This document shows, piece after piece, positions 2,802 through 22,921 of a stretch of 24,137 nt of DNA. Source of the DNA: Candidatus Hydrogenedentota bacterium (lineage in GTDB: Bacteria; UBA8481; J006); contig RFFU01000056.1 in assembly GCA_003697085.1 (NCBI GenBank), positions 1 to 24,137 of the forward strand. The letters are read 5' to 3'. The notes under the pieces were generated by a model, which searched no databases, was not told the origin of the DNA, and saw nothing but the letters and a program-made list of their open reading frames with translations. Position 1 is the first letter of the stretch, and each line of letters begins with the position of its first letter. The translations under genes and the position numbers were made by a program.

Positions 2802-4475
2802 TCATGGCCCCTCTTCCCCTTCCCCTCCGGAGAATTCATTGATATCGCGCCACCGTTTCTCTCTCTCCGGCTCCACCGGCTCCTTCCGGCTCCGGAAAAA
2901 CTCTTCCTCTATCTCCCGCAGGCTCTTGCCGAGGTCGCGGCCCGGTCCCGCCTCGGTGAACTCCGTGTAGGCATCGCCGCCGCCGGCAAGAAAACTGTTC
3001 GTTGCCACAGTGTAAATCCGATCGTCGTCCAGCGGCTCCTTCCCAACGAAGACGTTCACGAGCCGATCCCAAGCCGGGCGCGAGGAATCGTAGTAAACGA
3101 TTATACCGGATATTTCGAGCGGCGTGTAACCGCCGTCAAGGGACTTCGCCACGATGCGCCGGACAAGCGAACCCGGCATCTTGAAAAGAACCACCGTGTT
3201 TCCGAACGGACTGACGGCGTAAAGGTCGCGCCGGCGGACTTCCCCCGCCGGAATTTCCGCTCGGATTCCTCCCTTGTTCTGAAAGGCGATCTCAGCCCCC
3301 GAAGCCTTTCGCATCAGATCCGTGATCAGATTGCCCAACGGGGAGGAGCCGTGAGCAAAGGAACGTTCGATCACGTCTCGCGCTCTTCCAACCACGACCC
3401 CCATCTCCGAATCGAACCGAGCCAGGATCGGAGCCAAAAACCGCTTCATCTCCGGGTCCGGAGGAAAGGAGTCGTTGTAAAGATCGACGAGCCGATATTC
3501 GAAACCGACCTTCCGACCCTTCACGACGTCCCATCGAAGATGAATCTCTCCAACCGCCGTTCCCTTCGCGCCGGTCTGAACCACACGCACGCCCTTGATC
3601 TCCAGAGGTTTCTCCAACCGCGTATGCGAATGACCTCCGACGATCAGATCGACCAACGGCCGTCCCGTCGCGGGATCCCGCTCCATTCCTAAAAGCGAAG
3701 CCAAAACGGAATCGTGACTCACGCCGGAGTGGGAAATCATCACGACGTACTCGGCCCCCTTCGCCCGCAATTCGCGCGCCGTCCGCACCGCCGCCTCCAA
3801 CTCCGGCTCCACGAAGGCGATCGAGGTGTCCAGAAGCGTCACCTTCGCCATATCCTCCGTCGTGATCCCGAAGAACCCGACATCGATTCCCAGGATTTTC
3901 TCGATGTGTGGCCCGGAAAGAAACGCCAGCCGCGCCCCCGTCCCGGCGTCCCGGAGATTTTCCGCCATCCAGGGAAATTTTGCGGACTGGACCAGAGTTT
4001 TGAGGTTCTCAACACCGTTGTCCAGATCGTGATTGCCGACCGCGGCGTAGTCGTATCCGATACGATTCATCACCTCGACCATCAATCTTCCCTTCGATTC
4101 GTTTCCTTCCGGCGTTCCCTGATAGATGTCTCCGGCGTCGAGGAGACGCACCGCAAGGTCCGGCCTTCGTGCGTCGGAATCCCGCCAGGTTCGAACGAAA
4201 CCCGCCAACGAAGCACTGCCGCCGATCAGAGGCGGATGCGCGGTATCGACCCAGACCGCTTTCAACGGCCGGATATTTCCGTGCACGTCATTCGTATGGA
4301 GAAGAACGATCTCGCGATACGAGCCGGTATTCGACGCATTCTCGGAGAGAGGAACCGCAGTGCAGGCCTGAAAGAAGAAAGCACCGAGGAGGAGGAAGGG
4401 CGCAAGCCATCGCCCCCGATGCCGAGTTTCTTTTCTTCGAGGCGATTCTTCCCGGAAGCCGCCCTTCTTCCGCAT
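2802..4475 (-). CDS. 5'-nucleotidase/UshA-type metallophosphoesterase lipoprotein
   Basis: This two-domain phosphoesterase is about 557 residues long. A basic n-region and hydrophobic stretch end in a lipobox-like FFQAC, so the mature protein should be lipid-anchored outside the inner membrane. The N-terminal metal domain shows HTNDVHG (about 60-66), GDIYQGT, GNHDLD and GGHSHT, the full calcineurin-type ligand set. The C-terminal 5'-nucleotidase domain shows QNKGGIRAEIPAGEV, SPFGNT and GGGDAYTEF. Members hydrolyse nucleotides, UDP-sugars or cyclic nucleotides. ATG 4475 has GGAAGGGG about eight bases upstream; GTG codons at 4514 and 4529 are alternative starts. It lies downstream of the BMC genes. 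Nucleotide hydrolysis would feed pentose phosphates (inference). Confidence 0.9.
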   Translation of the reverse strand: MRKKGGFREESPRRKETRHRGRWLAPFLLLGAFFFQACTAVPLSENASNTGSYREIVLLHTNDVHGNIRPLKAVWVDTAHPPLIGGSASLAGFVRTWRDSDARRPDLAVRLLDAGDIYQGTPEGNESKGRLMVEVMNRIGYDYAAVGNHDLDNGVENLKTLVQSAKFPWMAENLRDAGTGARLAFLSGPHIEKILGIDVGFFGITTEDMAKVTLLDTSIAFVEPELEAAVRTARELRAKGAEYVVMISHSGVSHDSVLASLLGMERDPATGRPLVDLIVGGHSHTRLEKPLEIKGVRVVQTGAKGTAVGEIHLRWDVVKGRKVGFEYRLVDLYNDSFPPDPEMKRFLAPILARFDSEMGVVVGRARDVIERSFAHGSSPLGNLITDLMRKASGAEIAFQNKGGIRAEIPAGEVRRRDLYAVSPFGNTVVLFKMPGSLVRRIVAKSLDGGYTPLEISGIIVYYDSSRPAWDRLVNVFVGKEPLDDDRIYTVATNSFLAGGGDAYTEFTEAGPGRDLGKSLREIEEEFFRSRKEPVEPEREKRWRDINEFSGGEGEEGP

Positions 4476-4593: not shown

Positions 4594-5085
4594 TCACTCT
4601 ACCCGCTCGATCCTAACCCCGTACTCCCGCGCCAAGTCGGCCGCAAGCGGCGTGACACGTCCTCCCGGAAGGAGACGGATCACACCGCCGCGGCTTCGCG
4701 CGGAGCGCACATCCTCCGCCGTAACGACCTTCTTCCCCATCGGGTCGATCGACGCTGCGACGCGGCCGGTTCGCTCCCGGCGCCGGCCGATCTCTTCAAC
4801 CACGGCCGCAAAAACCGCCTCAATCAGTTCCCTTGTCTCGGCATCCTCGATCCGGGGGACCGGCTCCTGACGGAAGGAGATTCCCAGCGTCTTGGCCCGC
4901 TCGCGGGCGGCGGGGGTAATCAGCGCATTGGCGGGGATTTCGATGACAGCAGCCTTCCGGCGCCGCGCCGCGTTAACCATCTCCTCGCTTACGACCGGCC
5001 GTTTGATCCGGCGACCGGTTCGCCTTCCGTGAACCGCGCGCCGCACCTCCTCCTCCACGACGCGACGGATCAGTTCCAGGTCCAT
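4594..5085 (-). CDS. BMC-locus protein with two EutQ-N-like modules and two amphipathic helices
   Basis: This 163-residue protein has no clear catalytic domain. It is built of two repeats: an amphipathic helix (1-17, DLELIRRVVEEEVRRAV) plus a module (30-71), then a similar helix (82-103) plus a second module (119-160). Each module has VVSEEMV or VVTAEDV, a short variable part, and a (I/V)TPxA turn leading into a helix. From memory this matches the N-terminus of EutQ (LITANDI...IITPEAR) and, more weakly, of EutT. The helices resemble BMC encapsulation peptides. ATG 5085 has an AGGAG site four to five bases upstream. A scaffold or cargo-adaptor role is inference; no enzyme activity is claimed. 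Confidence 0.75.
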   Translation of the reverse strand: MDLELIRRVVEEEVRRAVHGRRTGRRIKRPVVSEEMVNAARRRKAAVIEIPANALITPAARERAKTLGISFRQEPVPRIEDAETRELIEAVFAAVVEEIGRRRERTGRVAASIDPMGKKVVTAEDVRSARSRGGVIRLLPGGRVTPLAADLAREYGVRIERVE

Positions 5086-5175
5086 TCTTCTCCTCGATCG
5101 ATTGATATAATCCGGCGGGACATCTTCTCAGCGGGGGGCGGGAGGCCGAAGCGAAACCCGCCGGGGGTCGGCGTC

Positions 5176-6597
5176 TTAGTAGATGCGGAGGGCATCCACA
5201 ATGGCCATGCGACGTTTTCGGGCGAAGTCACGTGGGGTGGTGCACCCTTCCCCCGTCGGCGTTGTGATGCTCCACGCCGTCGGGCCCTCGCCTTCGAGGC
5301 CGAGGCCGTTGTAACAGGAGCCGTTAACGACGAAGATCGAGCAGTTGGCGCGGCGGCCGAAGATCGTAACGTGTTCGAGATTCCGCGAATGGATCATCGC
5401 CGTGTGGGAATATCCGTGTTCGGCCTCCAAAGCCGCCTCCATCGCGGCCTCGAAGTTCGGCATCCGCACGATCGGAAGGATCGGCATCAATTGTTCCGTC
5501 TGCACCAGCGGGTGATTTTTATTCGAGCCGACGTCGCAGAAGAGGATCGGCGTCGAGGAAGGGATGGTCAGATCGATTCGTTTGGCAAGAACCGAGGCGA
5601 AGCGTCCCACCGAATCACGCCTCGGCCGGCATCGCGGACCGTGCGGCCCCTCATACCCTTCGAGACAGGTCTTGAGGAGCCGATCGAGTTGATAGGAACC
5701 GATCTCGACGGCTCCGTTCTTGCGCAGAGCCGCCTTGAATTCCTCCGCGACACTCTCGACGACGAAGACCTCCTTCTCCGCGATACAAACGATGTTGTTG
5801 TCGAGCGAAGCGCCTTGCACGACTTTCCTTCCCGCCCGTTCGATATCCGCCGAATCATCGACGATCACCGGCGGATTCCCCGGCCCGGCGGCCAGGCATC
5901 GCTTCCCCGAACGCGTGGCCGCCTTCACCACGCTCCCCCCACCCGTCACGACCAGCAATTTCACCTTCGGCGAATCGAAGATGGCTTGCCCCGTCTCCAA
6001 AGTCGGGTTGGCAACGGTCGTAAGCATATTGCGGGGACCGCCCGAGGTAAGGATTGCGCGATTCATCAATGTCAGCGCGCGCGTGGAAACTCGTTTCGCC
6101 CCGGGATGGAAGTTGAAGACGATCGAATTGCCGGCCGCGAGAGCGCAGATCGCGTTCGATGTCACCGTCTCCGGAGGATTCGTGCTCGGCGTGATCGAAC
6201 CCACAACACCGAACGGCGTGTACTCCTCCAGCGTCACCCCGAAGTCACCGCTGAACGAACGGTGCGGAATATCTTCGATCCCCGGCGTCTTGTCCACGAC
6301 CAAAGTAATCTTGTTCACCTTGTGCTCGGGATTCCCCATCCCCGTCTCGGAAACCGACAGTTCCGCCAACTCCCGAGTGTGCTCTCGAATCACCGCCCGC
6401 ATCGCCTCGATGATCGCGGCACGTTCGCGCAACGGCAACGCTACCCACGCCTTCTGGGCTTCTTCCGCCGCCGCCACGGCATCCTCCATCCGCGAGAAGA
6501 CGCCGTCGGCGTTCTCCACCCGAAGCGCCTCCGGATGATCCGCCTGAAGGCGGCTCATCACCCGGCTGACAATACCGGCTATCTCGGCATCATCCAT
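5176..6597 (-). CDS. eutE: CoA-acylating aldehyde dehydrogenase, BMC type (EutE/PduP family)
   Basis: This 473-residue enzyme should oxidise an aldehyde to acyl-CoA with NAD+ inside a microcompartment. The N-terminus MDDAEIAGIVSRVMSRLQ is a predicted amphipathic helix like the encapsulation peptides of EutE and PduP, followed by a variable linker. Family motifs are GVVGSITPSTNP, GNPPVIVD and NNIVCIAEKEVFVV; the last holds the catalytic cysteine. Length matches EutE (about 467). ATG 6597 has AGGAG eight bases upstream. The symbol marks the closest named family and does not imply an ethanolamine pathway, since no ammonia-lyase or diol dehydratase is in view. No partner alcohol dehydrogenase or phosphotransacylase lies in the window. 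Confidence 0.93.
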   Translation of the reverse strand: MDDAEIAGIVSRVMSRLQADHPEALRVENADGVFSRMEDAVAAAEEAQKAWVALPLRERAAIIEAMRAVIREHTRELAELSVSETGMGNPEHKVNKITLVVDKTPGIEDIPHRSFSGDFGVTLEEYTPFGVVGSITPSTNPPETVTSNAICALAAGNSIVFNFHPGAKRVSTRALTLMNRAILTSGGPRNMLTTVANPTLETGQAIFDSPKVKLLVVTGGGSVVKAATRSGKRCLAAGPGNPPVIVDDSADIERAGRKVVQGASLDNNIVCIAEKEVFVVESVAEEFKAALRKNGAVEIGSYQLDRLLKTCLEGYEGPHGPRCRPRRDSVGRFASVLAKRIDLTIPSSTPILFCDVGSNKNHPLVQTEQLMPILPIVRMPNFEAAMEAALEAEHGYSHTAMIHSRNLEHVTIFGRRANCSIFVVNGSCYNGLGLEGEGPTAWSITTPTGEGCTTPRDFARKRRMAIVDALRIY

Positions 6598-6771
6598 CTC
6601 TCATCTCCTGTCTCTCTCCCGCCTTCGTCGTTCCGACCGCGCCAAACCATCGGAAAGCCGCTCTCAATCCCGGTTCCACCATGCATTGGTTCCTTCGAAC
6701 CCGGCCGGTTCGCACAATCCGCTTCCCTCCTCGATCTTCCGCTCTCGACGTCCCTCGTCGGGAGATCCTTA

Positions 6772-7065
6772 CTACAGAGCGTTCGGTTTGCGAACCTCAC
6801 CTCCGTATTCGATCGCGTCGATCACCGCCGAGACCGCTGCGTCGATCGGAGTTCCTTCTCGCGGATAGGCCATCCGCGCGCTCGAGCCCGAGACGAAGAG
6901 CACCGTCTCCCCGGCTCCCGCTTGCACGGTGTCCGCCGCGACGACGAAACTGCCCTTCGGCTTCCCGTCCACCCCGCATTCCTCGATCAGAAGGAGTTTT
7001 GTTCCCTCCAACTTGGGCGATTTCCGCGTGGCGACGACGGTACCGACAACCCGGCCGATCTTCAC
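6772..7065 (-). CDS. eutN: BMC vertex protein, BMC-P pentamer (EutN/CcmL family)
   Basis: This 97-residue protein begins MKIGRVVGTVVATRKSPKLEG, the first strands of the EutN/CcmL fold. It continues with KLLLIEE, a mid-protein VAADTVQAGAGETVLFVSGSSAR signature and the TPIDAAVSAVIDAIE helix. Pentamers of this family cap the vertices of microcompartment shells. It begins 27 bp after the BMC-H gene on the same strand. A gap of 174 bp, in which I see no gene, separates it from the aldehyde dehydrogenase gene. The symbol denotes the family only. Confidence 0.94.
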   Translation of the reverse strand: MKIGRVVGTVVATRKSPKLEGTKLLLIEECGVDGKPKGSFVVAADTVQAGAGETVLFVSGSSARMAYPREGTPIDAAVSAVIDAIEYGGEVRKPNAL

Positions 7066-7092
7066 CGTATCCCGGTCTTACGCCCTGAACCC

Positions 7093-7383
7093 TTACTTCC
7101 GGTCGTCTTCAGCCACTCGGATCGGAAAGACTTCCTTCACGTTGGGATGCGGCCTCGGGATGACGTGAACCGAGAGCAACTCGCCGACCTTCTCCGCAGC
7201 CGCCGCACCGGCATCCGTCGCCGACTTACAGGCCGCGACGTCGCCGCGCACAAAGACGGTGACAAGGCCGCCGCCGACCTTCTCATAGCCGACCAGAAGA
7301 ACCTTCGCCGCCTTCACCATCGCGTCCGCCGCTTCGACCGCGCCGACCATCCCTTTCGTTTCAATCATTCCCAGTGCTTCCAC
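7093..7383 (-). CDS. eutM: BMC shell hexamer protein, BMC-H (EutM/PduA family)
   Basis: This 96-residue protein starts (M)[10 protein letters not shown] and has [29 protein letters not shown] and [11 protein letters not shown]. It is close to canonical EutM over its whole length. Six copies form the hexagonal tile, and the KVGGG loop lines the pore. I chose GTG at 7383 because GAGGAGG lies five bases upstream and the family begins exactly there. The open frame runs to 7461, but that extension matches nothing in the family. It is the first gene of the minus-strand BMC cluster. A possible but weak promoter, TTGTCA-18-TAGTTT, lies around 7465-7500. Confidence 0.95.
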
Positions 7384-7461
7384 GCTGACCTCCTCGGGAC
7401 AGAATTTTTCCTCTGGAAAGAGAGCGCAGCGCCTCTCCGCCGGCGTCTCTCCCTGGAACAC

Positions 7462-7819
7462 TGAAAACTACTCCAAGGAACCCGTGACTGACAAGGACAT
7501 TTTTCGGGGAAAAAAGCGCAAAGTTGAAAAGCCCCGGTATCGGAGTCGGGGAGGGAACGAGTTCGAAAAAACAATTCCCTTGAAGTAACGCTTTTCCTTT
7601 TGCCTTTTGACTTTTCCGTGTCATTCCGTTGTTCTGTGGTTTTCCGTCTTCCCGTGTTGTTCCATGTCTTCCATGGTTTTTTCGTTCACCGTTCTTTTTC
7701 GTTTCTTTTCTGAATTCCATTGGAATGTCAGCCCATTCTTTCGCAGACAAGAGTGTCTGCGCTTCACCTTTCCTTTTTCCTTCTGCCTTTTGACTTTTGC
7801 CTTTCTTTTCTTCCGTGGT
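7462..7819. repeat. Spacer upstream of the BMC cluster with hairpin and pyrimidine tracts
   Basis: I see no gene here. A CGCAGACA-AGAG-TGTCTGCG hairpin lies at 7742-7761. It is flanked by C/T-rich tracts with TTTTGCC/TTTTGAC phrases and by CCGTGT/CCGTGG phrases (about 7614-7690 and 7812-7818). A CCCCG/CGGGG inverted repeat near 7530-7552 could act as a weak terminator for the minus-strand pseudogene to its right. Confidence 0.5.
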
Positions 7820-8230: not shown

Positions 8231-8880
8231 AACACGTCTCCTCTGACGTCTTTCAGCAATGCCTATGTCCCAAGATCTACTTTATACCTCGCCGCCATTC
8301 TTCTGTTCCCAAAAAGTTTTCCTCCTCGTTCCCAGGATTCCCATAGGCACGTTTCCGCGCCGAGGCTGAACCTCATATTCGGCGGAGACGGCGGAAGGAA
8401 TAGGCCATCGGAAGTTGATGCATGTTCCGGGGGCCTCGCCGATGTTAGTACGGGCATGGCCGAAGGCACGGGCGAAGCAAAAGTCAAAAGGAGAAAGGCA
8501 AGGTCAAAAGCCAAAAGAGATGGAAAGATTTGGAGCGCAGACTCTCCCGTCCGCGGCAAACCTCTGGGAGCGTGGGCATCCTACTCGCAGGCAACCGCCC
8601 TCTTCCGCATGTTGGAGAACCTGCGTACCGTTTCTGCCGGCAGGGATGCCGACGTTCGCAGGGCTCGCACCTCTCCCGGGTCTTTCTGCCGGCAAGATGC
8701 CGGTGGCCCCAGGGAGGGCGTTCTTCGCGGGTGTGATGGTTTCGGGTTGTTTGAAGGTGGGTTTTGAGGGATATTTTTGGGGGAACGTGGCAAATAATGA
8801 TGAGAGACGGAGAGACAAGTACCGCGGAGCGAGGTCAAGGAGCGCAATACGAAAAGCAAGGAGCCGGGTTTCGTGTTTAG
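8231..8880. repeat. Repeat-rich spacer before the thi operon
   Basis: No gene is supported. On this side the purine strand is on top: about 8476-8530 is AAAGGCAAGG/AAAAGCCAAAAG sequence, the reverse complement of the pyrimidine tracts elsewhere. A degenerate CGCAGAC/GTCCGCG hairpin follows near 8536-8554. Further hairpins are GCCGGCA-GGGA-TGCCGAC (8636-8653) and GCCGGCA-AGA-TGCCGGT (8688-8704). I looked for a TPP riboswitch (CTGAGA ... ACCTGAT core) and did not find one. Confidence 0.55.
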
Positions 8881-8891
8881 TGGAGTAACCG

Positions 8892-9113
8892 ATGGTATAT
8901 GAAGAAATGTTGACGATCATTTTGAACGGAAAGGAGCGTTCCGTTCCCGAAACCGTGCGTACGGTGGCGGACCTCGTCGAGCATCTCGGTTTGAAGGACC
9001 GACCGATCGCAGTGGAGGTAAACCGAGAATTGGTTCCGCGTGCCAGCCATCCCCATCACGGACTTTCGTCCGGCGACCGGGTCGAGATTCTCCAATTCGT
9101 CGGCGGTGGTTGA
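8892..9113 (+). CDS. thiS: ThiS sulfur-carrier protein
   Basis: This 73-residue ubiquitin-fold protein carries sulfur as a C-terminal thiocarboxylate for thiazole formation. The core is [13 protein letters not shown], followed by [23 protein letters not shown] and [13 protein letters not shown]. The protein ends in the diglycine that is adenylated and sulfurated. ATG 8892 has GGAG six bases upstream. ATG 8907 would give a start closer to the family norm, so the first five residues are uncertain. It leads an operon whose next genes are a kinase (4-bp gap), a response regulator and thiG. No thiF, thiH, thiO or thiC is visible. Confidence 0.92.
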
Positions 9114-9117
9114 AACG

Positions 9118-11172
9118 ATGGCGAAGAAGGAGGTTACGGAAGCGGAAGAGATGAGAACGGATGTGTTTCGTCTTCTTCCCTATCCGCTTCTGATCGTCGA
9201 AGGGGGATCGATCCTCTTCGCCAATCCCGCTGCGGAGCAATGGGGTTTCGAAGATGGAGGCAGCATCGACTCTCTTCCGCGGGACATTCTGGAAATCATC
9301 CGAGACGGCACGATTCGGCGGAAGAAGAAGAAGGAATACCGCGGACTGGTGATGAAACTCCCGGGCTTTTCCGAGGCGGTGACGATCGATCTCTCTCTCG
9401 TCCCCATCCCGTCGATTGAGCACCCGAACGCCTTGATCGTCTCATTCGTCGATGTGACGTGGCACCATCAGACGATGGACGAGATCGCGCGGATCGTTCT
9501 GGAAGCGGAAGCGGCGAACCGGGAATTGAACCTCAAGATTCGAATTCTGTCGGAGTTGGCTCGTCTCGGCGAGGCCCTTCTCAAAGCCGTCACGCCTGCG
9601 GACGTCAAAGACCTTTTGGTCTCTTCGCTCCGAAACACGGGCCTCTTTCGAGAAGTCCTTTTGTTGGAGAGCGGCATGAAGGAGAGTGGAGGAAATGCCG
9701 CATTGCCTTCGGATGCGAAGGAATGGCTGGAGGATTTCGAACGCGGTTTCAACCGCTCCGGTTTCTTCGCCAAGGACACTCTTATTCTCTGTCCGCTTCT
9801 TTCGCGGGAAAGCGCGTTCGGCATCCTTCTGCTTCGGGTCTGGGAGCCGGAGTCGGGATTGATCAGTCTGGTGGAAGAGGTGCGCTCTTTCGTGTCGCTG
9901 GGAACCTTCGCGCTCGAGAATCTCCTTCTCTCGGACGAGCTTCTGGACACCTTGCGCGATCTCTCGTTCCGGAATCGGGTTTCCCGGATTCTGCAATCGA
10001 CCCGTTCCCCCCACGATCTCGAGGTTTCATTGCGGAATCTGTTGCTTTCGTACCTGCCGATCAAGTGGTTTGGCATTGTGGACTCGGTTTCCGCGGCCAT
10101 TCCTCGTCCGCTTATGGAAACGGTGGAACAGGCGTTGCGCGGGCAAACGGTTGTGACTCCCGACGGAAGCGGGATGGCGGTTCCGGGAGGCCGAGGAGGA
10201 CCGGAGGGGGACGAGACCGGTTTGAGGCGGTACTCGGTCTTCGCGATTTACGGGGAGAAAGGCGCCTTCCACTCCGCGGCGCGCCGAAAATTGATCCAAT
10301 CCGTTTTCGACACAGCGGCGATCGCGCTGCGCAATGCGCGGCTTTACCAGGACATCCGAGCACACACGGTTGCGCTGGAATTCCTCAACAAAGAGCTGGC
10401 GCGTGCAGTGGAGAACCTGAAGGCGGCCAACGAGATGAAATCACGTTTTGTCTCGACCGTCTCGCATGAATTTCGAACTCCGCTGACAAGCATTCTTTCG
10501 TATGTGGAGACTTTGCTGGCCGAGGGAGAGAAAATCGACCCGGCGACGCGAAAGGAATTTTTGACGGTGGTGCAAGATGAGTCGCGGCGCCTCTCGCGCC
10601 TCATCAACCAACTGCTCGATTTCTCCCGGATCCAATCCCGCGACACGGAATTGTCGATCGTCAACGTCGATCTCGCGGACTTGCTCGGACAGATTCACGC
10701 CGCCTTGGAGCCGATCGCGGAACAAAAACTTCTCGAATTTCCGGAGCCGTTGGTAGAGGCTGCGTGCGCGGTCCTGGGGGACCGTGACGCGCTTCATCAA
10801 GTCTTGCTCAACATCGTTTCGAACGCGATCCAATACACGCTCCCGGGAGGCCGGGTACGGATTCTTCTGGATTCGGACGAAGAGTTCGCATATATTCACG
10901 TGGAGGACACCGGTGTGGGGATTCCGCCCGATTCGTTGGAGAACATCTTTGGTGAGTTCTTCACGGTAACGCAGACACGGGCGGAGGTTGCGCGGGCGGA
11001 GCATATCCGCAGCGGCGGCGGCAAGGAGGATCCCTCGTTCGGCACCGGTCTCGGCCTGGCCATCGCGAAGGCGATCGTCGACCGTCATCAGGGGCAGATC
11101 GAAGTAAGATCGAAAGTCGGTGAAGGCACCGTCTTCACGATTAAATTGCGAAGGAGAGGCGTGGAGGAATGA
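9118..11172 (+). CDS. Soluble hybrid-sensor histidine kinase (PAS/GAF-like, HisKA, HATPase)
   Basis: This 684-residue kinase has no membrane segment, so it probably senses a cytoplasmic signal. The N-terminus (about 15-115, FRLLPYPLLIVEGGSILFANPAAE) looks like a PAS fold. Two GAF-like regions follow (about 140-280 and 285-425), then a coiled linker. The dimerisation helix carries VSHEFRTPL with phospho-accepting His450. The ATP-binding domain has NIVSNAIQYT (N box), EDTGVGIP (G1) and GTGLGLAIAKAIV (G2). ATG 9118 lies four bases after the thiS stop. The open frame begins at 9040 inside thiS, but that part is shadow. The stop overlaps the next start in ATGA, so kinase and regulator are coupled. 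The ligand is unknown. Confidence 0.92.
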   Translation: MAKKEVTEAEEMRTDVFRLLPYPLLIVEGGSILFANPAAEQWGFEDGGSIDSLPRDILEIIRDGTIRRKKKKEYRGLVMKLPGFSEAVTIDLSLVPIPSIEHPNALIVSFVDVTWHHQTMDEIARIVLEAEAANRELNLKIRILSELARLGEALLKAVTPADVKDLLVSSLRNTGLFREVLLLESGMKESGGNAALPSDAKEWLEDFERGFNRSGFFAKDTLILCPLLSRESAFGILLLRVWEPESGLISLVEEVRSFVSLGTFALENLLLSDELLDTLRDLSFRNRVSRILQSTRSPHDLEVSLRNLLLSYLPIKWFGIVDSVSAAIPRPLMETVEQALRGQTVVTPDGSGMAVPGGRGGPEGDETGLRRYSVFAIYGEKGAFHSAARRKLIQSVFDTAAIALRNARLYQDIRAHTVALEFLNKELARAVENLKAANEMKSRFVSTVSHEFRTPLTSILSYVETLLAEGEKIDPATRKEFLTVVQDESRRLSRLINQLLDFSRIQSRDTELSIVNVDLADLLGQIHAALEPIAEQKLLEFPEPLVEAACAVLGDRDALHQVLLNIVSNAIQYTLPGGRVRILLDSDEEFAYIHVEDTGVGIPPDSLENIFGEFFTVTQTRAEVARAEHIRSGGGKEDPSFGTGLGLAIAKAIVDRHQGQIEVRSKVGEGTVFTIKLRRRGVEE

Positions 11173-11918
11173 GCAAGAAAGTGGTGCTGGTCGTGGACGA
11201 CCAGGCGAACGTGCGTAACATTCTCGAATTCAATTTCAAGCGACGCGGGTTCGATGTGTTGGCGGCTCCGGACGGATTGGCGGCGATCACGATGGCGGTC
11301 AATCAAACTCCCGATTTGGTGGTTCTCGATATTATGATGCCGGGAATTGACGGCTTCCAGGTACTTGAAAAACTCAAGTCCTCGGAAAAGACCCGGGAAA
11401 TCCCTGTTCTCGTCGTCTCCGCCAAGGGGACCGAACCCGATATTCTCAAGGCGATGCAGCTGGGCGCGAAGGATTACGTCGTCAAGCCCTTCAATATGGA
11501 TGCGTTGATCCAAAAGGCCTTCCGGCTGATCGAATCGGCTCCGGAGCGGAAGGAGGAAAAACCGCGGACCAATGAAAAGAAAACACTTCCCTACCCGATC
11601 GCCGGTTTCCTTCACGTGAAGGCGAACATCGATTCCGAAACGGAAAGAGACTTGGAAGAGACGGTTCTGGCGTTGGCTTCCGTCGTCAATTCCGGAATCG
11701 TGGTGGCGTTGGATCCGGAAGAAGATATACCGAGCCTGACCTTCGGAAAGTTGGCTCGCATTCAACAACAGGTGAAGCGGACCGGTTCGGAATTGATTCT
11801 TGCGACGAACTCGGATTCCCACCGGCAGACCCTCTCCGATTCCGGGTTCGGAAAGCATTTCAAGATCCTCCCGATTCCCGACGATCTCTGGGAGAAGGAG
11901 AAGGGGGAGAAGCAATGA
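11169..11918 (+). CDS. Response regulator, REC plus STAS-like C-terminal domain
   Basis: This is a 249-residue protein. The receiver domain (1-122) has the acidic pair D10/D11, phospho-acceptor Asp54 in VVLDIMMPG, and Lys106 in DYVVKPF. A charged linker (about 127-143) leads to a domain at about 145-240. That domain resembles a STAS/anti-anti-sigma fold ([18 protein letters not shown], then [15 protein letters not shown], then [13 protein letters not shown]). No DNA-binding domain is visible, so output is probably through protein contact. The start overlaps the kinase stop and the stop overlaps the thiG start, both as ATGA. The receiver is certain; the STAS call is by pattern only. Confidence 0.9.
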
Positions 11919-12712
11919 GCCTGCGGTATGACCCCGTTCAGAGAAAGACGGACGGGCCGCTCGTTGTGGGAGAAACCGCCTACCGGTCGCGGTTGATTGT
12001 CGGGACAGGCAAATACGCGGATCTCGAGGTGATGCGGAGGGCGTTGGAGGCCTCGGAGGCGGAGGTCGTCACTGTCGCGCTCCGTCGCGTTGATCTCGAC
12101 CGCCCCGACAAGAAGACGCTTCTCGATTTCATCCCGAAATCCTTCCGGCTCCTTCCGAACACGGCCGGGTGCTACACAGCGGAGGAAGCGGTGCGCGTGG
12201 CGCGTTTATCGAGGGAGATGGGGATCGGAAACGCGGTGAAATTGGAAGTCCTCGGCGATGAGCGGACGTTGTTGCCGGACGTTGTGGAGACGCTGAAGGC
12301 GGCGGAAACGTTGGTGGAGGAGGGGTTCGAGGTATGGGCCTACACGAACGACGATCCCGTGACGGCACGGAAACTCCAGGAGATCGGTGTGGCCGCGGTT
12401 ATGCCGCTGGGGGCCCCGATTGGAAGCGGGCAAGGACTTCTCAATCCCAATCCCATCAGAATAATTCTTGAAGAAATCCGGGTACCGGTTATAGTGGACG
12501 CCGGTGTCGGAACCGCTTCGGACGTCGTCCTTGCGATGGAACTAGGCATCGACGGTGTCCTGCTCAACACGGGGATCGCCGGCGCCGACGATCCCGTGCG
12601 TATGGCCCGAGCAATGGCGCACGCTGTTCGAGCGGGGCGCGAGGCTTTCCTGGCGGGCCGAATCCCGAAACGGTTGTACGCCAAGGCTTCGACGCCGGAA
12701 AAGGATTTTTAG
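11915..12712 (+). CDS. thiG: ThiG thiazole synthase
   Basis: This 265-residue TIM-barrel enzyme builds the thiazole phosphate of thiamine from 1-deoxyxylulose 5-phosphate, dehydroglycine and ThiS-thiocarboxylate. Motifs are [61 protein letters not shown] and [14 protein letters not shown]. Lys109 in [10 protein letters not shown] is the Schiff-base lysine. Length agrees with the family (about 255-270). ATG 11915 overlaps the response-regulator stop (ATGA), so it is translationally coupled to signalling genes. That gene order is not the usual thiS-thiG adjacency. Confidence 0.96.
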
Positions 12713-12763: not shown

Positions 12764-13744
12764 ATGACGACACAACAAGACCAACTCTTGCTGGAGCACT
12801 ACCGTGACCTGATCGGCCCGACGCCGGTCGTTCAACTGGACCGAATCAGTCCGCAGCCGGGCCCGACCTTCTTCGCAAAACTGGAATTTCTTCTTCCCGG
12901 GGGAACCTCGTCGGACCGCGCGATCGATTACCTCATCCGAAATGCCGAAAAGGAAGGAAGTTTGAGAACGGGAAGCGCGGTCGTGCTTCCGACCGACGGA
13001 ACGACGGCACCGGGAGCGGCGATCCTTTCCCGCGCCCGCGGCTACGAATTTATCGCGGTGATGCCGGAATCGACGCCGAAGGGTTTCGTGGAACACACGC
13101 GGTTGTTGGGAGGCGAGGTCGTCTTTTCTCCGGAACACGATCATATCCGCGGAGCGATTGCTTTGGCGAAGGAACTGATCAATGAAAATCCCGGCAAGCG
13201 GGTGTTGATCAACCTTTATGAGAACAGCGCGAATGCGGAGATCCACAAAAAGACAACCGGCCAGGAGATCATTCATGTGCTCGGAAAGAATATCGACGCG
13301 CTCGTGGTCGGAATTCATTCCGGCGGAACAATCGCCGGATGCACCGGTGCGCTGAAGGCCGTCAATTCGAGGTGCAAGGTGGTGGCGGTGGAGCCGGCGG
13401 AATCGAATGTTCTTTCGGGAGGGAAGCCGAGACCGCACAATTTGCACGGCCTGGGCCTTCCCGCTGTTCCGCCTTTCCTGAACCAGGCTCCCATCGATGA
13501 GGTCGTGAAGGTGACGGTCGAGGCGGCCGAGGACGGGCGCAGCGTCTTGGCCGAGAAGGAAGGGATCCTTGTGGGGCCGGCCGGCGGAGCCGTGATTGCG
13601 GCGATGCTGGAGGTCTGTGAGAAGATGGGGCCTGATCAAGATATCGTGGGAATTCTCAACGTTCCCGGACATTATTATTTGGCGCGGCCGGAGCCGGAGG
13701 AGGAAGAGGAGCGCTCGGAGGAGGAGGCGGCGCCGGTATCCTAA
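12764..13744 (+). CDS. Cysteine-synthase-fold protein lacking the PLP lysine
   Basis: This 326-residue protein aligns with CysK/CysM along its length (IGPTPVVQLDRI; YENSANAEIHKKTTGQEI; VVAVEPAESNVLSGGKPRPHNLHG). Key active-site sites differ. The lysine motif NPxxSxKDR reads LPGGTSSDR, placing Ser50 where the PLP Schiff-base lysine belongs. The substrate loop TSGNTG reads TDGTTA (77-82). The late SSGA and PDSGERYL motifs read GPAGGA and NVPGHYYL. The phosphate-loop glycines survive as HSGGT. A very acidic tail (EPEEEEERSEEE) ends the protein. It starts 51 bp after thiG on the same strand, with GAAGAAAA upstream. It is probably not a PLP enzyme; a sulfur-relay or regulatory role beside ThiS/ThiG is inference. 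Confidence 0.88.
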   Translation: MTTQQDQLLLEHYRDLIGPTPVVQLDRISPQPGPTFFAKLEFLLPGGTSSDRAIDYLIRNAEKEGSLRTGSAVVLPTDGTTAPGAAILSRARGYEFIAVMPESTPKGFVEHTRLLGGEVVFSPEHDHIRGAIALAKELINENPGKRVLINLYENSANAEIHKKTTGQEIIHVLGKNIDALVVGIHSGGTIAGCTGALKAVNSRCKVVAVEPAESNVLSGGKPRPHNLHGLGLPAVPPFLNQAPIDEVVKVTVEAAEDGRSVLAEKEGILVGPAGGAVIAAMLEVCEKMGPDQDIVGILNVPGHYYLARPEPEEEEERSEEEAAPVS

Positions 13745-15037: not shown

Positions 15038-15440
15038 GCAGGCATCTTGCCTGCAAGAATGGGCCGCAGGTTCTCCAACCTGCGGGGCGGATCGGCGTCC
15101 GCGTTGTCATTCCGAGCACCAGCGAGGAATCCTCTTCACGCGGTATCCCGCCGTGGTGCCGATACGCCCCCCTCACCCCAACCCTCCCTGCCTGCGCCGC
15201 GATGCGTCGCGGCAGGCAGGTCCCCCCGAGGGGCGAGGGAGAACGAGGCGGTTGTCAGCAGACTTGGGGGATTCCTCGTCAGGCTGCGCCAGCCTGCCGG
15301 CAGGCTGGCCCGCCCCGGAATGACACCACGGGCGGATCGGCAATTCGCAGACGTTCGCAGACTGGAGAGTCTACGCTTCAAATCTTCCGTTCCCTTTTCC
15401 CTTTTGCCTTTCTCCTTTTTTCTTTTTCCGTTGTCGCCGG
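15038..15440. repeat. Copy A of a long direct repeat, including an inverted-repeat-bounded element (15106-15324)
   Basis: The block opens with hairpins GCAGGCA-TCT-TGCCTGC (15038-15054) and CCGCAGGTT-CTCC-AACCTGCGG (15064-15085). An element follows from GTCATTCCGAG (15106-15116) to CCGGAATGAC, ending at 15324. These ends are inverted repeats of each other. After it come ACCACGGGCGG, the hairpin CGCAGACT-GGAG-AGTCTACG (15356-15375) and a pyrimidine tract. Nearly the same order recurs at 16195-16460, where the element is about 92 bp shorter. No protein coding is supported inside. Confidence 0.75.
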
Positions 15441-15805: not shown

Positions 15806-16194
15806 ACGTCCATGTCTCCCTCCCTTGTCTCACCTCGGCGCGACCGCGAATTTTTCTCTCTGCCGCCCGCCGGGGCCGGGCTCCATCCCGGTTCGTTTCC
15901 TACTTTCACAGAATTTTACCCCCGTAGCGCGGGAAAATCAACCTTGTTTTTCATCTTCCTTTTTTCTTCATCTTTCCTTCTGCCTCGTATTCGGCGGAAC
16001 CGGGAGGCAGACGTTCCGGGACGGAGCCGTCGGAACGAGAAAAAATGAGAAACGGGCACGCCATTTTCCGTCCCTTTTTTCTTTTGATTTTGCGCTTCTC
16101 TTGTTCCGTCGTTCCGAGGCGCGTCGGCGCGCCCCCTCCCCCATTAAGATTCGGCCCGAGGCCGTGACCGGCTTCCGTCGTTCCGGCGGGCACG

Positions 16195-16460
16195 ATGCCT
16201 GCAAGAATGGGGCGCAGGTTCTCCAACCTGCGGGGCGGATCGGCGTCCGCGTTGTCATTCCGAGCGCCAGCGAGGAATCCCCTTCACGCGGTATCCCGCC
16301 GTGGTGCCGATACGCCCCCCTAACCCAAACCCTCCCTGCCTGCGCCTGCCTGCCGGCAGGCAGGCCCGCCTCGGAATGACACCACGGGCGGACCGGCAAT
16401 TCGCAGACTGGAGAGTCTACGCTCCAAATCTTCCGTTCCCTTTTGCTTTTGCCTTCTTCC
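16195..16460. repeat. Copy B of the long direct repeat, including the 127-bp element 16254-16380
   Basis: Hairpin CGCAGGTT-CTCC-AACCTGCG (16213-16232) precedes an element bounded by perfect 11-bp inverted repeats, GTCATTCCGAG (16254-16264) and CTCGGAATGAC (16370-16380). ACCACGGGCGG, hairpin CGCAGACT-GGAG-AGTCTACG (16402-16421) and a pyrimidine tract follow. Both element flanks (GCGTCCGCGTT and ACCACGGGCGG) are identical to copy A, so the whole block was duplicated. The block is not two separate insertions. Confidence 0.78.
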
Positions 16461-20625: not shown

Positions 20626-21207
20626 ATGAAGCCCTTCTATCGCATCGCATTGGGATCCGATCACGGTGGATACCGTCACAAAGAGATCCTAAAGCGTTTT
20701 CTCGCCTCGTTGGGTCAGGAAGTGATCGACTGCGGATGTCACAGCGAGGCTTCTTATGATTTTCCGTTGAGCGCGGCGGCGGTGGCGCGGCGCATCGTGA
20801 ATCGGACGGCGGAACGCGGCGTGCTCATTGACGGAGCGGGTTTTCCTTCGGCGATGGTGGCGAATCGTTTCCCCGGTGTTCGCGCGGCGGTGGTGCACAA
20901 CGATTTTACCTGCACGATCAGCCGCCAACACAGCGACGCGAATGTCATCTCGTTCGGAGCAAAGGTCGTTGATCCGGACGAAACCTGCCGGCTCGTCGAA
21001 CTCTGGCTCCGCACGGATTTCCTCGGTGGAAAGTACCAGCGGCGATTGGATTTGCTAAGCGCCGTCGAACGGGAAGCCGCAGGCAAGACCTCGGGGAAGC
21101 GGCGGCTTTTGACCGCCCGAGACGTCGCCGAAAATCCTCAGGCCCTTACGGAAACCGATTCCGTGCTGCTCACACCCGCGGCCGTCGATCTTCTTCGGAA
21201 CCGCTGA
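20626..21207 (+). CDS. rpiB: RpiB/LacAB-type sugar-phosphate isomerase with BMC-like C-terminal module
   Basis: The isomerase core (1-145) has IALGSDHGGY, VLIDGAGF, RFPGVRAAVVHNDF, SRQHSDANVISFGAKVV and FLGGKYQRR. RpiB interconverts ribose 5- and ribulose 5-phosphate. The catalytic cysteine of E. coli RpiB (in GILICGTG) is Asp69 here, and GTG is GAG. An acid can serve as the base in the family (Mycobacterium uses Glu), so activity is plausible. Residues 146-193 are an extra tail, KRRLLTARDV ... SVLLTPAAVDLL. The tail matches the repeated module of the 4594-5085 protein and the EutQ N-terminus. This suggests co-localisation with the microcompartment (inference). A branched terminator follows directly. 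Confidence 0.9.
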   Translation: MKPFYRIALGSDHGGYRHKEILKRFLASLGQEVIDCGCHSEASYDFPLSAAAVARRIVNRTAERGVLIDGAGFPSAMVANRFPGVRAAVVHNDFTCTISRQHSDANVISFGAKVVDPDETCRLVELWLRTDFLGGKYQRRLDLLSAVEREAAGKTSGKRRLLTARDVAENPQALTETDSVLLTPAAVDLLRNR

Positions 21208-22582: not shown

Positions 22583-22921
22583 ATCGAACCGACGGCGGAT
22601 ATCTTCCGGACCGGAGTGTACGTCCTCTTTTTGCAGGCAAGATGCCTCCTGAGTGCGAAGGGCAAGGACAAAGGCAAGGCAAAAAGCAAAAGGCAAAAGG
22701 GAAAAGGGAAAAAGAGAGATGAAGATTTGGAGCGTAGACTCTCCAGTCTGCGAATTACCGTTCCGCCTCCCGCAGGTTGGAGAACCCGCGCCCCATTTCT
22801 GCCGGCAGGGATGCCCGCGTTCCCAGGTTAGAGAACCTGCGGATGCACGGTCTCGCCGGGCCGCCCTCGTATGTGTCTTTTCACTGTGAAATAAATCACC
22901 GTAAATTTCGCCCCCTTTCTC
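22583..22921. repeat. Hairpin-repeat cluster
   Basis: No gene is seen. Hairpins in order: GCAGGCA-AGA-TGCCTCC (22633-22649); CGTAGACT-CTCC-AGTCTGCG (22733-22752, one T.G pair); CGCAGGTT-GGAG-AACCCGCG (22771-22790); GCCGGCA-GGGA-TGCCCGC (22801-22818); and AGGTT-AGAG-AACCT near 22825-22838. A purine tract (22660-22730) lies before the second hairpin, the mirror arrangement of 16402. Confidence 0.65.

Follow-up and report, generated by a model that had tools for sequence, protein, structure and literature searches.

The window, by which we mean the whole 24,137-nucleotide stretch of DNA analysed here, is an entire contig (C86) of a 3.2-Mb genome assembled in 145 contigs. It carries an apparent operon, read in one direction, that runs thiS, histidine kinase, response regulator, thiG and a cysteine synthase-like gene. 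The unit opens with thiS (8892-9113, +), encoding a sulfur carrier that ends in -VGGG, matches PF02597 at 57.8 bits and TIGR01683 at 74 bits (cut-off 37.45), and has a C-terminus resembling that of B. subtilis ThiS in 1tyg. The histidine kinase gene (9118-11172, +; PF00512, PF02518) overlaps by four bases the gene for a response regulator with a C-terminal STAS-like domain (11169-11918, +; PF00072, PF01740), which in turn overlaps by four bases thiG, the thiazole synthase gene (11915-12712, +; PF05690, E 2e-109), whose product ends in ASTPEKDF. The last gene (12764-13744, +) starts with ATG, encodes 326 residues without an internal stop and is referred to here as pseudo-CysK. An initial sequence-only reading of this DNA had placed the gene beside thiG, as the PF05690 match bears out, and had missed thiS and the surrounding operon. 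No Rfam match (RNA element or riboswitch) was found within the window.

Elsewhere the window holds several further features. Bacterial microcompartment genes occupy 4594-7461 on the reverse strand and encode an EutM-type shell protein (7093-7461), an EutN/CcmL-type vertex protein (6772-7065), an aldehyde dehydrogenase (5176-6597) and a small EutQ-like protein (4594-5085). An RpiB-type sugar-phosphate isomerase (20626-21207, +) carries at its C-terminus an extension, LLTARDVAENPQALTETDSVLLTPAAVDLLRNR, similar to parts of the EutQ-like protein; going by this resemblance, the extension might be a microcompartment targeting segment. Intergenic repeats, both direct and inverted, are dispersed at 7740-7790, 8602-8662, 15038-15433, 16186-16450 and 22675-22827; they are up to 180 nt long and about 75-94% identical, contain a phrase like TTCGCAGACTGGAGAGTCTACGCT, and have similar text in another contig (L109, about 3780-4325). 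An AbrB-type antitoxin-like small ORF (341-583, +) followed by a Doc/Fic-like protein (614-1009, +) is, by eye, a likely toxin-antitoxin pair.

Pseudo-CysK belongs to the superfamily of the cysteine synthases, with PF00291 (PALP, fold-type II) matching at 197 bits (E 6e-58) against a cut-off of 35. The nearest NCBIfam model is CysK (TIGR01139), whose curated cut-off of 351 bits it misses with a score of 241, as it misses those of cysKM (237 against 344) and cysM (153 against 394), and it passes none of the cysteine synthase models. An orthologue occurs in G001, a comparison genome of the same phylum and order and of a different family, which was the only other member of the phylum examined; the orthologue is also below the CysK cut-off (230 against 351 bits), where the genuine CysK of the same genome scores 464. 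An AlphaFold2 model of pseudo-CysK, computed from a 14-sequence alignment, has a mean pLDDT of 87.7 and a pTM of 0.86. The solved structures closest to it are cysteine synthases, and the top match is to the O-acetylserine sulfhydrylase 1o58 (Z 41.8, rmsd 1.5 over 291 residues), in agreement with the initial claim that the fold signature of CysK is intact. The sole disordered part of the model is an acidic C-terminal tail (residues 309-326, 13688-13741, +; PEPEEEEERSEEEAAPVS), with a pLDDT of about 40. The sequence-only reading had singled this tail out as unusual; it is present, but it is not conserved, and its absence from the G001 orthologue rules it out as a functional feature.

Within this fold, the active site has been dismantled. 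Where cysteine synthases have NPxxSxKDR, pseudo-CysK has LLPGGTSSDR, with Ser50 at the position of the lost Schiff-base lysine (loop LPGGTSSDR, residues 44-52, 12893-12919, +). The former substrate loop, canonically TSGNTG, reads TDGTTA (residues 77-82, 12992-13009, +), the former PLP-phosphate loop, canonically GVGTGGT, reads GIHSGGT (residues 183-189, 13310-13330, +), and the former C-terminal serine motif, canonically PDSGE, reads NVPGH (13658-13672, +). The changes in the lysine loop, the substrate loop and the serine motif had been read from the sequence at the outset, and all three are real both in the sequence and in a 66-sequence alignment drawn from many phyla. In that alignment all 64 canonical homologues have K50, N80, G82, Q151, G185 and S273, and all six of these invariant residues are lost in both pseudo-CysK members. 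The orthologue, which also has Ser50, reads LLPWNISSSR in the lysine loop, SDGPSA in the substrate loop and GVNSGST in the phosphate loop (so that HSGGT and NSGST stand in place of GTGGT), and lacks the C-terminal serine motif.

With every key PLP contact lost, pseudo-CysK cannot run CysK chemistry as known. Loss of the lysine alone would be no proof against PLP, because Lys-to-Ala mutants of OASS-type enzymes keep it as external aldimines, going by the titles of structure entries 1d6s, 3x44 and 5b1i; it is the other lost contacts that carry the case. Those mutants offer a precedent for a protein that is still a PLP enzyme, holding the cofactor non-covalently or via another lysine, but neither orthologue retains the asparagine, the phosphate-loop glycine, the loop glycine, S273 or the C-terminal serine, and we find this reading barely credible. 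On the residues present, pseudo-CysK probably does not bind PLP at all. Altogether, 29 sites conserved in canonical enzymes are lost in both members. The two share the same new residue at 11 of these, roughly what background identity predicts, and a strong new constraint on the pocket is to that extent unsupported. Asp78, Leu151, Tyr152 and Ser186 are conserved between the pair, leaving a pocket that is altered and partly conserved.

The orthologue is 47-49% identical in amino acids to the window protein, and its possession of Ser50 in another family shows that the serine is neither a recent mutation nor a sequencing error. The sequence-only reading had proposed that orthologues be checked for Ser50 and for linkage to thiG; both are conserved in G001, and no orthologue that keeps the lysine was encountered. 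The two genes have very different GC3 values (0.71 and 0.34) with both frames intact, and their identities at codon positions 1, 2 and 3 are 0.57, 0.69 and 0.28, close to the pattern of the neighbouring response regulator (0.58, 0.69 and 0.35), which points to purifying selection on pseudo-CysK. Decay is ruled out by the intact frames at such different GC3 together with the codon-position identities. The initial proposal of selection for a non-PLP function is upheld by these same identities and by the lysine loss, pocket changes and thiG linkage common to both genomes. It is thus well supported that the gene encodes a conserved pseudoenzyme, since the loss of catalytic residues is common to both orthologues and the frame is under purifying selection.

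We also examined identity in the former active-site shell, a set of 33 positions picked from knowledge of CysK. Between the two pseudo-CysK members it is 0.61, against 0.47 elsewhere in the protein, whereas in 885 canonical pairs with a background identity of 0.40-0.55 it ranges from 0.76 to 1.0 with a median of 0.91, and is never below 0.76. The pseudo-CysK value lies below those of all 885 canonical pairs, which indicates that the fold is still protected but the original chemistry is not.

The family is narrowly distributed. A two-sequence profile searched against 386 genomes returned only the two members, at 648 and 617 bits, with the next best at 251, and the best other loci inspected had all kept the lysine. 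No further member was found in the phyla that supplied the two ThiG proteins next in similarity (4 and 40 genomes), in a scan of viral contigs, or in a scan of GTDB contigs, which used exact peptides of the window protein and could pick up only close relatives. A 51%-identical fragment in genome G045 was rejected as a member, being a lysine-bearing CysK at a contig end. The pseudo-CysK pair forms a clade with support of 100/100 on a long stem of 1.94 changes per site. We conclude that pseudo-CysK derives from a CysK-type cysteine synthase, that it has kept the PALP fold and lost PLP chemistry, and that it has been retained since before the split of the two families within the phylum.

The sequence-only reading had looked towards CysM, which in actinobacteria is fed by the carrier CysO, and descent from such an enzyme is not supported, as the CysK score of the protein exceeds its CysM score and the window genome has a separate set of the latter kind. 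That set, on contig C62, comprises a lysine-bearing CysM-like enzyme, a JAMM protease and a fused ThiS/MoaD-MoeB-rhodanese protein. In G001, an ordinary CysK adjoins a metX-like gene, and there is also a ThiS-MetY-ThiF-JAMM set (L110:7749-9999), which looks like a protein-thiocarboxylate homocysteine route; its carrier ends in GGGR, and the last residue would need trimming. Pseudo-CysK is itself without the lysine, and its neighbourhood showed no JAMM gene. The CysO-type idea therefore fits the C62 and G001 ThiS-MetY-ThiF-JAMM loci, not pseudo-CysK, and the presence of other lysine-bearing cysteine enzymes in both genomes makes it very unlikely that pseudo-CysK is the organism's cysteine synthase.

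We turn now to the neighbour. The window thiG is the only thiG in its genome, and by alignment to 1tyg and 1xm3 its active site is intact: Lys109, Glu111 and Asp195 align with B. subtilis Lys96, Glu98 and Asp182, the catalytic residues. The operon thus combines a ThiS bearing a C-terminal GG with a ThiG bearing the catalytic Lys, Glu and Asp. In the two phylum genomes, and only there, ThiG stops earlier than usual and ends in STPxKDF, whereas nearly all other ThiG proteins have SSPxEG and then continue. ThiC is present in the window genome and was not found in G001, and a ThiE-like gene, nearly full length and below the cut-off, is present in both. Neither genome, in a pair that is 95% and 86% complete, has a ThiH above the cut-off (best 40 bits against 380) or a ThiO (best 58 bits against 251), and thus neither shows either source of dehydroglycine. 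The weak ThiH matches fall within two-gene loci resembling CofG/CofH. As a separate observation, a CofG/CofH pair (deazaflavin F0 synthesis) is apparently present in both genomes (L115, L116), which suggests factor F420 or F0 in the phylum. At this completeness, ThiO and ThiH are likely to be absent from the pair as far as profile scores can tell.

ThiG needs dehydroglycine, and a ThiH-ThiG complex has been reported to avoid its hydrolysis (PMC9046217). Pseudo-CysK could then be imagined to have acquired a new, PLP-free catalysis on the old fold, for example standing in for the missing ThiO or ThiH by supplying or channelling dehydroglycine for ThiG, and the intact ThiG and the ThiE-like gene fit such a gap in the pathway. 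However, pseudo-CysK has no site for the redox or radical cofactor that oxidising glycine or cleaving tyrosine requires, the pocket is not strongly conserved between the two members, and the genomes in which ThiO and ThiH are missing are themselves incomplete, so that we hold this to be most improbable. It is very unlikely, too, that the PLP-free CysK-fold protein is an obligate subunit of a variant thiazole synthase lacking ThiO and ThiH, in which it would protect, channel or help to form dehydroglycine or the thiocarboxylate on ThiG; if true, this would constitute a third bacterial route to the thiamine thiazole.

The order response regulator, thiG, pseudo-CysK is common to both genomes at 47-78% identity (ThiG 78%, response regulator 51%, pseudo-CysK 47-49%), and the outer flanks differ. 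In G001 neither thiS nor a histidine kinase lies beside thiG, so that the conserved core consists of three genes. As only two members are known, the linkage amounts to one independent comparison. At 28 ThiG loci in other phyla, the neighbour usually detected was ThiS, and flanks of about 1.5 kb yielded neither a CysK-like nor an RR-STAS gene; the association of thiG with pseudo-CysK therefore looks lineage-specific. The gene might have no functional tie to thiG at all, being a CysK-derived pseudoenzyme with an unrelated role that shares the transcription unit by chance. Its presence in two genomes only, the difference in flanks outside the core and a pair identity far under that of ThiG are all compatible with this, but the immediate gene order has held over a large divergence while the flanks changed, and thiS lies in the same unit in the window, which leads us to regard a chance association as unlikely.

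A role in signalling has to be weighed against the same gene order. Pseudo-CysK could recognise a protein tail or a small ligand, be it O-acetylserine, an amino acid or a sulfur species, and act together with the histidine kinase and response regulator/STAS protein encoded alongside it. In that case thiG would only be co-regulated, and CymR-CysK of Bacillus and CYSL-1 of worms would be parallels. Besides thiG, the RR-STAS gene is the other neighbour kept in both genomes, the changed pocket is partly conserved, and CysK-fold proteins are known as regulatory partners (PMC5562914; solved CysK complexes with regulator peptides). On the other hand, the histidine kinase is unlinked in G001, thiG stands between the response regulator and pseudo-CysK in both genomes, and there is no fusion to a sensory domain; we consider a sensor fairly unlikely. 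A response regulator with a STAS-like output is in any case an unusual pairing; it is linked to thiG in both genomes, with the STAS domain reaching threshold only in the window copy.

A fold kept without its chemistry, in a gene tightly linked to that of a single enzyme, points to a binding partner, and such a partner is supported by the retention of the three-gene order across families while the flanks changed. Pseudo-CysK is thus probably a non-enzymatic partner or regulator and not an enzyme. The likeliest reading, to which we give an even chance and for which the fold offers precedents, is that it specifically assists ThiG, a (beta/alpha)8 thiazole synthase, as a non-catalytic partner, and possibly ThiS as well. 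As such a partner, pseudo-CysK would dock on ThiG and activate or stabilise it; alternatively, once docked, it would hold the ThiS-thiocarboxylate or the labile imine intermediate in place, or shield ThiG intermediates. ThiS would be a second candidate partner, an idea raised as conceivable in the sequence-only reading and more plausible now that a true ThiS is seen to open the same apparent operon. We infer binding to ThiG or ThiS, and an effect on activity, from fold and linkage. The two-component proteins of the same transcription unit may tune the supply of pseudo-CysK. More speculatively, the STPxKDF tail of ThiG may serve for docking, much as CysE, CdiA-CT and EGL-9 insert their C-terminal tails into CysK-fold proteins. 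Asp78, however, sits where CysK has a Ser or Thr facing the carboxylate, which argues against simple docking of a C-terminal tail in the old pocket.

CysK is among the best-studied of PLP enzymes and is a known docking hub. In the literature that we covered, which is incomplete, we found no description of a bacterial CysK-derived family in which loss of the lysine is a fixed, conserved state. Pseudo-CysK shares with CysK the whole fold (as in the 1o58 match), 36-40% identity and the conserved core glycines, and differs in having no PLP lysine, rewritten substrate and phosphate loops and no C-terminal serine motif. Proteins of the CysK family act as hubs on which protein tails dock, and CYSL-1 of C. 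elegans is a CysK homologue without biosynthetic activity that is regulatory through protein binding (PMC5562914). CYSL-1 resembles what we propose for pseudo-CysK, a CysK homologue that has left biosynthesis and would bind proteins, but it is described as keeping a bisulfide-binding site, binds EGL-9, and is an animal protein outside any thiamine context. The CysM-CysO-Mec+ system likewise ties a CysK/M-fold protein to a ThiS-like carrier; its CysM, however, is a lysine-bearing PLP enzyme, and the window genome's own such set sits apart on C62.

Operons in Pelodictyon and Chlorobium, in which thiS and thiG occur with cysteine synthase genes, have been described as a sulfur-supply link (PMC1779556). 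They share with the present operon the combination of thiS, thiG and a cysteine synthase-family gene, but by description the enzymes there are ordinary cysteine synthases, whereas here the unit holds a dismantled enzyme and a response regulator. Within vitamin synthesis, the pseudoenzyme PDX1.2 boosts a vitamin-forming enzyme of B6 synthesis, as cited in PMC6522883 and PMC12727527. There is a distant relationship between the PdxS and ThiG barrels; PDX1.2 differs in being a paralogue of its own partner, while pseudo-CysK comes from a fold unrelated to ThiG. Its position beside thiG, in a lineage without a recognisable ThiO or ThiH, raises the testable question of how the substrates of ThiG are supplied.

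TSB-like is a fold-type II protein, and TSA (tryptophan synthase alpha subunit) shares the (beta/alpha)8 architecture of ThiG. In core eudicots, TSB-like is a dead PALP-fold paralogue that activates TSA (PMC12727527). Both TSB-like and pseudo-CysK are PALP-fold proteins that have lost catalysis, and the partner of TSB-like is a barrel enzyme; they differ in that TSB-like is a plant TSB paralogue with a demonstrated partner, whereas pseudo-CysK has a CysK ancestor, a bacterial thiamine context and a partner that we propose from linkage. Thus, if ThiG is indeed its partner, pseudo-CysK would be another PALP-fold pseudoenzyme in the service of a barrel enzyme, in parallel to TSB-like and TSA.
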